Of a stretch of 64,000 bases of DNA, positions 1,974 to 46,812 are shown one piece after another. The stretch spans positions 1-64,000 of the forward strand of contig NZ_SPFO01000005.1 of NCBI RefSeq assembly GCF_005845035.1, in the 5' to 3' direction. The DNA comes from Collinsella aerofaciens (GTDB lineage Bacteria; Actinomycetota; Coriobacteriia; Coriobacteriales; Coriobacteriaceae). The notes below the pieces were generated by a model. That model worked only from the letters and a program-made list of their open reading frames with translations. It searched no databases and was not told the origin of the DNA. A program made the translations under genes and the position numbers. Positions within the stretch are counted from its first letter, which is position 1, and each line of letters begins with the position of its first letter.

Positions 1974-3061
1974 CTAAGCCAGTGCAGCTCGCGTATCAAA
2001 CAGAGCCTTTGCAATCGCAGCCGTAACCTCGCTCGAACGGTCACTCCATGGCATCGATGTCATGACGCTCATGACATAGGTACGGCCATCGATGTCGATG
2101 AGGCCTGCATCGCATGTCGAATAGTAACCACCCTCGCTAATCCAGCCTGCCTTGTTGCGCACCAAAACCTGCTCATCCGCAATGCCATCGCGAATAAACG
2201 AGCGCGATGTTGATGCCAGAAGGCCCGACAACCACTGTGAAGTCTCGGTATCCATGCTCAGATACTCGCTCATCTCGCGCCATAACCTCGCAGAAGTGCG
2301 CGGGCAGTAGGTCGGAAAATCACTCATCGGATCCAGTGCCGTATCGTAATCGATGCCAAGACCGACAATCCAATCCTCGTAACCGACACGGTCAAACGCC
2401 GCACGTAACGCAATAAACGAATCGTTGTCTGAATAAACGACCGCAGCCTCGATCAAGTCGCGCACCGCCTGCCAGCCCATACTGTAACCACCATACGTGG
2501 CTAAAGGCCAATCGAGCGACACCTGACCCGATTCGACCAACGTCTCGCAAATATAGAGCGCATGTAACTGCTCGCTCCATACACCTCGACATCGGCGCTA
2601 TACGTCACGCCTCTACCGCTCGATAGGTCGTAGAACACTACGCCCACTTCACCCAGCTCCTGCGCCCGGCTCAGGGCATCCTGGAGCGAAGCAAGGCTCT
2701 TATCCTCCAAGGTAGGAATCTTGTTATCCACCAACGAGAAGGTCTGAACGGTATCACTCGAAGGGATATCGTTGAAGTCCACCTTCGAAAGTCTCGTCTT
2801 GAGATCTGCCGACGCTTTGGACTTTGAAACCTTTTCGTTTTGCAGCTGTACCGTTGACGCATCTGAGCGCACCGTTCGCTCCGAGGCATAGGCTTTAGCG
2901 GTAATTCCGAGGATAATAACCGCTAACGCTAACATTCCTATGGCGGCAATCTTCGCCCCGCGAATGCGAGCGTCGGCAAGGCCACGCAAAGACGTGCCCT
3001 TCGTCTCATATCTGCTGCTATGCTGCGGCACATACTCATCCCGCGATGCGATGTTTCGCAC
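1974..3061 (-). pseudogene. Serine beta-lactamase-like protein, frameshifted at its SxxK motif
   Basis: Two overlapping frames make up one protein. The upstream frame (GTG at 3061 with AGGAG upstream) gives an N-terminal cytoplasmic tail, one membrane anchor (AAIGMLALAVIILGITA) and the start of a class A beta-lactamase/serine hydrolase domain ending near YGASSY. The downstream frame (stop at 1974) resumes with LVESGQVSLDW and continues to RNKAGW and the C-terminus. The join lies near 2565, at the position where the family has S-x-x-K; a base is missing there and the Lys codon is lost. Either the gene is inactive or this is a sequencing error. Anchored homologues are usually extracytoplasmic penicillin-recognising hydrolases; substrate unknown. 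Confidence 0.75.
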
Positions 3062-3224
3062 GTGGTCTCCTGACTGCTACCGTTTATATACGAGCAGCAT
3101 GATACCGAGCAGGCATTTCTTTCCAAAGATATTCAGCGGCGTTTAAGGTGTCTTTAAAGAAACCACAAGCGTATTTATCCAAATGGCACGATTCTGTTGC
3201 GCATCTCACCGCAACCTTGACCAG

Positions 3225-3300
3225 TCTTTTTGGGACGGGGCTCTTTGGCAATCAACTTGGTGCCCAGGGACATTCATTTAAGTCTGTCCCCAATGAGTGC
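3225..3300. repeat. Intergenic GGGAC/TGTCCC repeat region
   Basis: The 262-bp gap 3062-3323 has no gene. It carries TTTTTGGGACGGGGC at 3226-3241 and a short palindrome GGGACA-N12-TGTCCC at 3268-3290. The first string recurs as part of the 33-bp palindrome at 45681-45793. It lies 3' to pflA. Confidence 0.45.
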
Positions 3301-3323
3301 CTTTGGGGAGCGAAAATGGCTCG

Positions 3324-4142
3324 CTAGCCGATGGCGTTTTTGAGTTCAGCGCGGCGCTTTTTCATGCCCGTCATGACGGCGTTGCGCAGCTCGGGCATGC
3401 GCGCGGTATCCATCTGTGGAACGCCCTCGAGCTTATAGGGAATCCCCAGCTGCTCGTATTTGACGACACCCATGGTGTGATACGGCAGCATCTCCAGGCC
3501 GACCACGTTATGCCACGGGGCAATCAGGCGACCGAGTGCCTCGCACTCCTCCACCGTGTCGGTAATGCCCGGCACCACCACGTGACGGATAACGACCTTG
3601 ATCTTGCGACGTGCAAGCTCATCGCCAAACGCCAGGATGCGTGCGGGATCGCAACCGGTCAGCTTTTTATGCTCAGCCGGATCGGCATGCTTGATGTCGA
3701 GCAGCACCATATCGGTCTCGTTGAGAACGGCATCGAACTTCTCGGGGTGGTTGGGGTCAAACGCATATCCGCAGCTATCGAGGCAGGTATGCACGCGGCC
3801 ATCGGGATTGTTGTGCATTGCACGGAACAGGTCGGCCAAAAACTCGGGCTGCAGGAGCGGCTCGCCACCCGAAACCGTAATGCCGCCGCTGCGATAGAAC
3901 TCATGGTTGCTCTGGAACTCGTCCATCAGGTGCTCGACAGTCACCATGGTGCCGCCGTTAACAGACCAGGTATCGGGATTGTGGCAATACGCGCAGCGCA
4001 TGGGACAGCCCTGAACAAACACCACAAAGCGAATGCCGGGTCCGTCGACCGTTCCCATCGTCTCAATCGAATGTACGCGGCCCAGGGCAAACGCGGAGTC
4101 CTCGGGACGAGCGTCCACACCCTCGAGCGTCATCTCAGCCAT
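3324..4142 (-). CDS. pflA: Pyruvate formate-lyase-activating enzyme (radical SAM)
   Basis: A radical SAM enzyme that places the glycyl radical on pyruvate formate-lyase. The iron-sulfur motif CxxxCxxC is CPMRCAYC, followed by HNPDTW, and TVDGPGIRFVVF precedes it, as in PflA. SGGEPLLQ is the SAM-binding GGE motif. The protein is 272 residues from the ATG at 4142 (GGCAAGG upstream); an ATG seven codons earlier is possible but has no clear ribosome site. It lies about 9 kb from its expected substrate (catalytic subunit 13293-15344, glycyl-radical protein 12956-13207), on the same strand but separated by a sugar operon and an IS element. Confidence 0.93.
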   Translation of the reverse strand: MAEMTLEGVDARPEDSAFALGRVHSIETMGTVDGPGIRFVVFVQGCPMRCAYCHNPDTWSVNGGTMVTVEHLMDEFQSNHEFYRSGGITVSGGEPLLQPEFLADLFRAMHNNPDGRVHTCLDSCGYAFDPNHPEKFDAVLNETDMVLLDIKHADPAEHKKLTGCDPARILAFGDELARRKIKVVIRHVVVPGITDTVEECEALGRLIAPWHNVVGLEMLPYHTMGVVKYEQLGIPYKLEGVPQMDTARMPELRNAVMTGMKKRRAELKNAIG

Positions 4143-41450: not shown

Positions 41451-42416
41451 ATGAACACCCTGATGTTCTTCTATACCCTAGCGATACTCGTGATCTGTAT
41501 TGTGACGGCGGTGCTCTCGCTTGCCGCCTATGCCTCGTCTCGTCGACGCTTCTTTATCTATGGCAGCGGCGTATTTATCTGCTATGCCATCGAGATGACC
41601 GAGATTTTCTTTTTTGAATACACGCTGCAAAACCAGAGTTTTCCAGCCAGCGACTATTACTCAATTACCATGCCTGTGTTGCGGACCCTTGTGGCGACCG
41701 CTTCACAGGCTTTTATTTGGCTGATTGCCATGGATTTGCTCGACAAGCACTCTAAGAAGCTGTTCGTCATTCCCGTCGCAACGTTCTTGGTAAGCGAGCT
41801 GTTGATTATCGTCGCCGTCCCCTATGGTCCCATGCACCAGTGGCTTTACTACACCATGCGCCAGGTGTTCCTTGTCTTTGTGGGACTGTATATCTTTTGG
41901 ACGGCTCGCAAGAGTACGAAGGTTGAGCTGAAGGCACGTGTTAACAACCAAAAGAAACACCTGATTATCGGCGCCATTCTGGTTGGCTGCATCGTTGCCG
42001 AGGACTTCTACAACATCCTGGTAGTTCCCATGAGCCTGGCGCCCTCTTGGCTGCAGCTGTACCTGTCCGAGCGCAACTTTAGCGAGAACGTCTTCGCTTG
42101 CTACTTTGCCATCCTGCTGATCATCTACGCCTATCACGTGCTTTCAATCCGCATGCAGGAGGCTCCCGAGGAAAAGAACGTCAGCGATCTTGATCGACAC
42201 ATCGAAGAGCAGATGCCCTTCTATCGCAACGCCTACAAGCTCTCCAACCGCGAGACCGAGGTCATGCGCCTGGTTGTGCTGGGCAAGTCGAACCAAGAGA
42301 TCGCCGACGAGCTGTTCCTTGCCGTGGGCACCGTCAAAACCCACATCCACAACATCCTGGTCAAAACCGAACAGCAAAACCGCACGACCCTCATCCTCCA
42401 CTTCTGGAAAAGGTAG
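41451..42416 (+). CDS. aguR: AguR-like membrane LuxR regulator 2
   Basis: A 321-residue one-component regulator divergent from ptcA. Seven hydrophobic segments occupy residues 1-235 (MFFYTLAILVICIVTAVLSL; LVATASQAFIWLIAM). A C-terminal LuxR helix-turn-helix follows: LSNRETEVMRLVVLGKSNQE then LFLAVGTVKTHIHNILVK. This is the layout of Lactococcus AguR, which senses extracellular agmatine and activates the aguBDAC operon. The position next to ptcA supports that role; the symbol is assigned by analogy. A structured element begins immediately after the stop codon. Confidence 0.85.
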   Translation: MNTLMFFYTLAILVICIVTAVLSLAAYASSRRRFFIYGSGVFICYAIEMTEIFFFEYTLQNQSFPASDYYSITMPVLRTLVATASQAFIWLIAMDLLDKHSKKLFVIPVATFLVSELLIIVAVPYGPMHQWLYYTMRQVFLVFVGLYIFWTARKSTKVELKARVNNQKKHLIIGAILVGCIVAEDFYNILVVPMSLAPSWLQLYLSERNFSENVFACYFAILLIIYAYHVLSIRMQEAPEEKNVSDLDRHIEEQMPFYRNAYKLSNRETEVMRLVVLGKSNQEIADELFLAVGTVKTHIHNILVKTEQQNRTTLILHFWKR

Positions 42417-45793: not shown

Positions 45794-45825
45794 TGTCATG
45801 TGTCGTTGTTGAGAGAGGACTCCTG

Positions 45826-46812
45826 TTGAAGACTGTTCATGTTGCCGCTGGGATCATTCGCAAGGAAGGATCCGATGAGCTGCTTGCCGTGCAGCGCGGC
45901 TACGGCAACATGCAGGGACTTTGGGAGTTCCCCGGTGGCAAGCTCATGCGCGGCGAGTCGCCCGAGGACGCCGTACGCCGCGAACTCATGGAAGAGCTGC
46001 AGGTCAAAGTCACCAACCTGCGTGACTTCTACACCGTTGAGTATGACTACCCCGATTTTCATCTCTCAATGGAGTGTTACTACTGCTCGCTGGCTAAAGA
46101 ATCCGATGAGCCTCAGAAGCACGACCGCCAGCTCGATATCCGCTGGATTCCGCGCACCTCGCTTGCCATGGTGGAATGGATGCCCGCCGACAAAGGGCTT
46201 ATCGATGCTCTGATTGAGTTGAAGGAAGATCGGCTCGAGGCAAGCTCCGCCGATGACGCCACGCCCACCACAGCCGACAAACCCGCCACCAAGCCCAAGC
46301 GCGCACCTAAGCGCCGCAGCAAGAAGCGCCCCAAGCCCGGCTTGCTGGACGGCATCGACACCTCGGACCTTTCCGCCGACGAGCGTGAGCTCGTGCGCCG
46401 TCGCGCCGCTATAAAAAAATCCATGAAGGGCAACAAGCGTGCGAACACCAAACCCGAGCTGCTCGTTCGCCAGCGCCTGCGGGCAGCGGGCCTTACGGGT
46501 TATCGCTTGGAATGGAAGGTTCCCGGCAAGCCCGACATCGCCTTCCCCGGCCGCAAGATCGCCATCTTCGTCAACGGCTGCTTTTGGCACCGCTGCCCCA
46601 AGTGCAATCCGAGCCAGCCCAAGCGCAACGTTGAGTTTTGGGAGGCAAAGTTCCGTCGCAACGTCGAGCGCGACCGCGCTGCCGTGGCAGCACTCACTCA
46701 AATGGGCTGGACACCCATAACCATCTGGGAATGCGAGCTCAAAAAAGACCGCATCGACGCCACAATGGAAAAGGTCATCGAGCAGGTGCGCGCCACAGAG
46801 CCGCAGCGCTAG
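45826..46812 (+). CDS. Nudix hydrolase fused to Vsr-type mismatch endonuclease
   Basis: One 328-residue protein with two repair-related domains. Residues 1-135 are a MutT-like Nudix domain with the box GGKLMRGESPEDAVRRELME. A Lys/Arg-rich linker follows (KPKRAPKRRSKKRPKP). Residues 190-320 are a very-short-patch repair endonuclease-like domain: ANTKPELLVRQRLRAAG, VPGKPDIAFPGRKIAIFVNG, CFWHRCPKC, RRNVERDRAAVAAL and TIWECEL carry the metal Asp and His positions of Vsr. It would sanitise oxidised nucleotides and nick T:G mismatches. It starts with TTG behind GAGAGGAC. No cytosine methylase gene is nearby. Confidence 0.88.
   Translation: MKTVHVAAGIIRKEGSDELLAVQRGYGNMQGLWEFPGGKLMRGESPEDAVRRELMEELQVKVTNLRDFYTVEYDYPDFHLSMECYYCSLAKESDEPQKHDRQLDIRWIPRTSLAMVEWMPADKGLIDALIELKEDRLEASSADDATPTTADKPATKPKRAPKRRSKKRPKPGLLDGIDTSDLSADERELVRRRAAIKKSMKGNKRANTKPELLVRQRLRAAGLTGYRLEWKVPGKPDIAFPGRKIAIFVNGCFWHRCPKCNPSQPKRNVEFWEAKFRRNVERDRAAVAALTQMGWTPITIWECELKKDRIDATMEKVIEQVRATEPQR

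Follow-up and report, generated by a model that had tools for sequence, protein, structure and literature searches.

A Nudix domain fused to a Vsr-like endonuclease in Collinsella, a candidate two-stage guard against 5-methylcytosine

Results

Architecture of the fusion gene

We investigated a gene at 45826..46812 (forward strand, stop codon included) of the window, i.e., the whole 64,000-nt stretch of Collinsella aerofaciens DNA that was analyzed. The reading frame runs uninterrupted from a TTG start to the stop and encodes a single chain of 328 amino acids. A putative ribosome-binding site (GAGAGAGG, 45811..45818, forward strand) is kept across C. aerofaciens genomes, and the TTG is kept at the equivalent position in six further genomes of the species; the homologous start in other, more distant species is ATG or GTG. 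The gene neighbors in the window encode an ABC transporter and an aldolase, and the existing NCBI annotation of one C. aerofaciens copy names just Vsr. Elsewhere in the window, 41451..42416 encodes a 321-aa protein that, judged by eye, apparently joins a hydrophobic membrane N-terminal part to a LuxR-like C-terminal segment.

Residues 1–131 (45826..46218, forward strand) form a Nudix domain of the MutT superfamily, which matches Pfam NUDIX (PF00293) over residues 5–123 above the curated cut-off (1.6e-18). The Nudix box GX5EX7REUXEE (G38–V60, GKLMRGESPEDAVRRELMEELQV, 45937..46005, forward strand), with the catalytic glutamates E53, E56, and E57, is complete in sequence and invariant in the alignment of fusions, and a Nudix fold is predicted; in the AlphaFold2 model, pLDDT is above 90 for the Nudix and Vsr domains alike. 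Residues 132–193 (46219..46404, forward strand) are a disordered, fast-evolving linker rich in lysine and arginine (about 61 residues, 16 of them K/R; pLDDT below 50 at residues 143–162). Because its length varies from 12 to 115 residues across Collinsella, the linker is a tether rather than a conserved module; the basic linker described in the earlier note thus holds for the window's protein, with no fixed length in the genus.

The Vsr endonuclease domain occupies residues 194–322 (46405..46791, forward strand). It matches Pfam Vsr (PF03852; residues 196–256, 4.5e-17, score 62.1 against a cut-off of 27) and NCBIfam TIGR00632 vsr (2.9e-31, 108.2 bits, above the cut-off of 97.85), and when the C-terminal 144 residues were predicted alone, the top structural match was 1cw0, the E. 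coli Vsr with DNA (E = 2.6e-9, TM = 0.77). The residue roles given below follow the 1cw0 and 1vsr structures. Asp237 (46534..46536, forward strand), the equivalent of the E. coli catalytic Asp51 in the 1cw0 alignment, is invariant among the fusions. The core FVNGCFWHRCPKC (residues 248–260, 46567..46605, forward strand) contains the wedge Phe253–Trp254, His255 (E. coli His69), and zinc-ligand cysteines, the last zinc cysteine being Cys303 in the motif WEC; all of these are invariant or nearly so among fusions. The protein differs from E. coli Vsr in that the domain stands behind a Nudix domain in one chain, with no adjoining dcm-type gene, and in having Asn at the His64 position, as Vsr proteins encoded next to C5 methylases usually do. 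The profiles, the intact box, and the predicted 1cw0-like fold therefore bear out the earlier note, which had read a Nudix box and a C-terminal Vsr domain in this chain and had named a missing Vsr fold as what would refute it.

Conservation in the genus and the family

Of 44 Collinsella genomes, 43 encode the two domains in a single frame; across the family, with five genera, the count is 61 of 66 genomes. Thirteen Collinsella stretches were compared in addition to the window, and in 12 of them the gene adjoins one and the same FtsX/ABC-transporter pair. These counts and the conserved locus rule out a single-strain fusion or assembly error, the second objection that the earlier note had raised, although a sister genus does encode the genes apart. 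Both domains are under purifying selection (dN/dS of 0.04–0.29 in the Nudix half and 0–0.16 in the Vsr half), and the linker is less constrained, with values up to 0.9.

The sister genus g2 (four genomes, G597–G600) has an unfused Vsr gene, with the Nudix gene on a separate contig in two of the four; this arrangement is probably the pre-fusion state, and it offers a natural comparison with the fusion. The small-genome Collinsella species G025 has lost Vsr and still has the FtsX/ABC-transporter pair. At its corresponding locus (L153:6815-8566, G025:C1), the equivalent Nudix domain forms an in-frame fusion of 583 aa with a Gfo/Idh/MocA oxidoreductase. Several Collinsella genomes (G008:C13, G009:C16, G010:C1, G021:C1, and others) carry a second, stand-alone Nudix protein of about 133 aa that is related to the fused domain and is absent from the window's genome. 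Two seeming in-frame TAG stops (L111 and L112) both lie past the end of the protein. A mobile or viral origin was rejected, as no fused match was found in IMG/VR, phages, or plasmids, with the exception of one large C. aerofaciens replicon among the plasmid-listed sequences.

The Nudix half groups with a 5-methyl-dCTP pyrophosphatase

The earlier note had called the Nudix box MutT-type, and one explanation of the fusion is that its Nudix half is the family's MutT, hydrolyzing 8-oxo-dGTP, so that two general mutation-avoidance enzymes have been joined. The fused domain is the sole MutT/NudG-like Nudix in the window's genome, the only other Nudix protein (C9, 234 aa) being of the NudF/ADP-ribose pyrophosphatase type by eye, and it could therefore also do MutT's job. 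MutT structures rank high in the fold comparison, other MutT-like proteins scoring slightly above 3GWY by structure alone, and TIGR00586 mutT matches across the whole domain. The score of that match is, however, below the cut-off (81.0 against 97.9 bits), and Asp122 (46189..46191, forward strand) occupies the position of E. coli MutT Asn119, the base-reading residue of that enzyme; Asp is also found there in 3GWY, NudG, and MutT2. Collinsella, a genus of gut bacteria, is an obligate anaerobe in which a low 8-oxo-dGTP load is expected, and an 8-oxo-dGTPase would leave the specific pairing with Vsr unexplained. We consider this explanation unlikely, and MutT-type in the 8-oxo-dGTP sense is not supported for the domain, which shares the Nudix fold and box with E. 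coli MutT but lies farther from it in the tree than from the protein described next.

Searched alone, the Nudix half finds Bacteroides fragilis 3GWY as its best match among PDB sequences (1e-16), and a profile search with the Nudix alignment also placed 3GWY ahead of MutT (1e-33 against 1.4e-21). MutT, NudG, and MutT2 fall outside a clade that unites the fused, Vsr-linked, and 3GWY Nudix domains (support 0.97 in FastTree, 97 in SH-aLRT) and in which 3GWY represents a subfamily sister to the fused domains. 3GWY (Q5LBB1) is a measured 5-methyl-(d)CTP/5-hydroxymethyl-dCTP pyrophosphatase, with kcat/Km of 4.8e6 per M per s on 5-Me-dCTP, 6.7e6 on 5-Me-CTP, 4.4e6 on 5-hydroxymethyl-dCTP, and 8.5e4 on 5-hydroxy-dCTP, the last being about 50-fold under 5-methyl (PMC5158307). 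E. coli NudG/Orf135 and mycobacterial MutT2, which belong to the same wider family, are CTP, dCTP, and 5-methyl-dCTP pyrophosphatases (the MutT2 structure was solved with 5mdCTP), but they have a single domain each and do not join the fused domain's clade. Phylogenetic bracketing thus makes a 5-substituted dCTP the likeliest substrate of the Nudix half. 3GWY shares with it the clade, the Nudix box, and the Asp at the specificity position, but is a stand-alone protein with only about 30% identity. Since the subfamily of 3GWY is sister to that of the fused domains, and the Prevotella proteins closest to 3GWY show no Vsr linkage, the substrate could have shifted.

Recurrent linkage of Nudix and Vsr in Prevotella

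Prevotella also has fusions, in two genomes (L032/L356 and L357). Collinsella Vsr groups with Coriobacteriia Vsr in the Vsr tree, and the Vsr of the Prevotella fusions with Prevotella Vsr; a single origin of the fusions is rejected by this tree (AU test: P = 0.00016) and by the Nudix tree as well (P = 0.0017), where the two Prevotella fusions fall into different well-supported subclades. One misaligned Prevotella row (L374) was excluded from the second tree. The trees rule out one fusion passed by transfer between Collinsella and Prevotella and indicate that the fusions of the two groups arose independently.

The linkage extends to unfused genes. In 249 Prevotella genomes, the linked Nudix subfamily occupies 78 places, and at 19 of them a Vsr gene is no more than 3 kb away, against 0.13 expected (binomial P ~ 5e-36). 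The search profile included seven Nudix sequences discovered through their nearness to Vsr, two of which come from counted genomes (G045 and G046), and the P value overstates the independent events because related genomes share ancestry. Countering the latter caution, linkage must have changed at least four times on the Nudix tree, as its starred branches require. The two genes are on one strand in 18 of the 19 pairs and occur in both orders, with Nudix first (mostly touching) or Vsr first. As a control, a paralogous Nudix subfamily of those Prevotella genomes is near Vsr in 1 of 34 cases. An unbiased sample of 60 Bacteroidales Vsr loci had Nudix linkage in 2 of 59 besides the seed, so linkage is a property of one Nudix subfamily, mostly in Prevotella, and not general for Vsr. 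Given the 19 of 78 places in both orders, the unlinked paralog, and the separate origins, the Nudix–Vsr link is recurrent and probably functional.

Cytosine methylases in the neighborhood and in the genome

The earlier note had observed that a Dcm-type methylase is absent and had proposed a repair role detached from cytosine methylation. No cytosine-5 methylase adjoins the fusion in the neighborhood examined in the window, which agrees with the note. The genome-wide search that it had proposed did return one, away from the fusion on contig 10. There, a C5 methylase whose N-terminal domain is a helix-turn-helix is divergent from a SinI-type restriction endonuclease (PF09570) (L001:1402-2751 and 2815-3726, G000:C10).

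A C5 methylase is present in 30 of the 44 Collinsella genomes and was not detected in the other 14. In the Collinsella genome G043 (L152:5171-6938, G043:C1), the fusion is separated from the ABC transporter by an Eco29kI-type nuclease and a C5 methylase, both oriented like the fusion. The 14 genomes lead us to conclude that the fusion is independent of a cognate adjacent methylase; it lives in lineages where C5 methylases come and go. The proposed detachment from cytosine methylation is consequently half right. No adjacent cognate methylase is needed, but the genome's own SinI-type methylase, the 30 of 44 genus members, and the adjacency in G043 speak against a role without any such tie. In Prevotella, a C5 methylase was found at a distance of up to about 6 kb from 6 of 20 Nudix loci linked to Vsr and from 0 of 60 unlinked ones, which is weak evidence because Vsr genes alone often have one (34 of 60 sampled Bacteroidales Vsr loci); the enrichment may thus be due to Vsr alone.

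Retention of the fusion in the 14 genomes is also what would be expected if it were a general guard against damaged pyrimidine nucleotides such as 5-hydroxy-dCTP, paired with a Vsr of relaxed specificity that nicks any T:G, with nothing special about 5-methylcytosine. Most Vsr genes of the class in the stretches examined have no methylase alongside, and 3GWY does take 5-hydroxy-dCTP, but its roughly 50-fold preference for the 5-methyl group (PMC5158307) and the Vsr homologs with the same core motif that adjoin C5 methylases elsewhere point the other way. We find this explanation somewhat less probable than the 8-oxo-dGTPase discussed above.

A possible two-stage guard against 5-methylcytosine

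Cells with C5 methylases pay a mutational price, to which the known bacterial answer is Vsr. We observed that both domains have intact catalytic residues and evolve under purifying selection, that the family conserves the fusion, and that linkage arose repeatedly and independently. From these observations we infer a common pathway, taking the Nudix substrate from its relatives and the Vsr activity from fold and residues: one protein would hold two enzymes that guard against 5-methylcytosine, first in the nucleotide pool and then in DNA. We give this reading an even chance. The Nudix half would hydrolyze 5-methyl-dCTP and related 5-substituted dCTPs to the monophosphate, which would keep the 5-methyl-dC of degraded methylated DNA from random incorporation into the chromosome. 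The Vsr half would nick on the 5′ side of the mispaired T where deamination of 5-methylcytosine has left T:G, and so start very-short-patch repair. Being fused or in one operon would keep the two enzymes at matching amounts; nothing points to a hand-over of substrate between them. The deoxynucleoside kinase PF01712 was not found in the 44 Collinsella genomes, which weakens salvage as the source of 5-methyl-dC.

The two-stage guard is favored by the 3GWY clade, the Vsr fold, the recurrent linkage, and the C5 methylases in the genome and beside the G043 fusion, and the separate origin of the same pairing in Prevotella suggests that both halves guard against 5-methylcytosine. Counting against it are the possible shift in substrate, the 14 of 44 Collinsella genomes that keep the fusion with no C5 methylase detected, the methylase enrichment near linked Nudix genes that Vsr may explain by itself, the lack of another MutT/NudG-like Nudix in the genome, and the missing PF01712 kinase. 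The link between pool cleaning and mismatch nicking drawn in the earlier note is supported, in a gene under selection, for activities that are those predicted from the two domains.

We extend this reading, tentatively and with slightly less than even confidence, to a dedicated 5-methylcytosine sanitation enzyme that departed from its methylase and evolved independently in Coriobacteriaceae and Prevotella. Such an enzyme would exclude 5-methyl-dCTP from DNA, repair T:G arising from misplaced 5-methylcytosine, and protect lineages with transient C5 methylases. If the fused Nudix is a 5-methyl-dCTPase, it would add a second, upstream line of defense physically tied to Vsr, and would point to a physiological role, testable by mutation spectra, for the unexplained 5-methyl-dCTPases 3GWY, NudG, and MutT2. 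Repeated and independent in two phyla, the linkage argues strongly that pool cleaning cooperates with very-short-patch repair. The Nudix and Vsr domains are each already known, and the interest lies in their recurrent pairing and in the testable connection to 5-methylcytosine; a search of an open-access library found no paper on a Nudix–Vsr fusion and none that connects pool cleaning by such a Nudix enzyme with Vsr repair.

Antiphage defense, in which the Nudix half would destroy phage pools of 5-hydroxymethyl-dCTP and 5-methyl-dCTP and the nicking half would attack DNA with modified cytosine, is very improbable, for although 3GWY is as fast on 5-hydroxymethyl-dCTP as on 5-methyl-dCTP (PMC5158307) and PADLOC flags both halves (PDC-S07 and Vsr), the gene is single-copy and fixed at a conserved locus, unlike defense genes, no fusion was found among phage or viral collections, and PDC-S07 is unspecific (125 bits for E. 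coli MutT, 147 for NudG, and 126 for the window's protein). Defense surveys that use PDC-S07 (PDLC04899) may accordingly count housekeeping Nudix enzymes, as the model gives MutT and NudG scores as high as those of its other matches.
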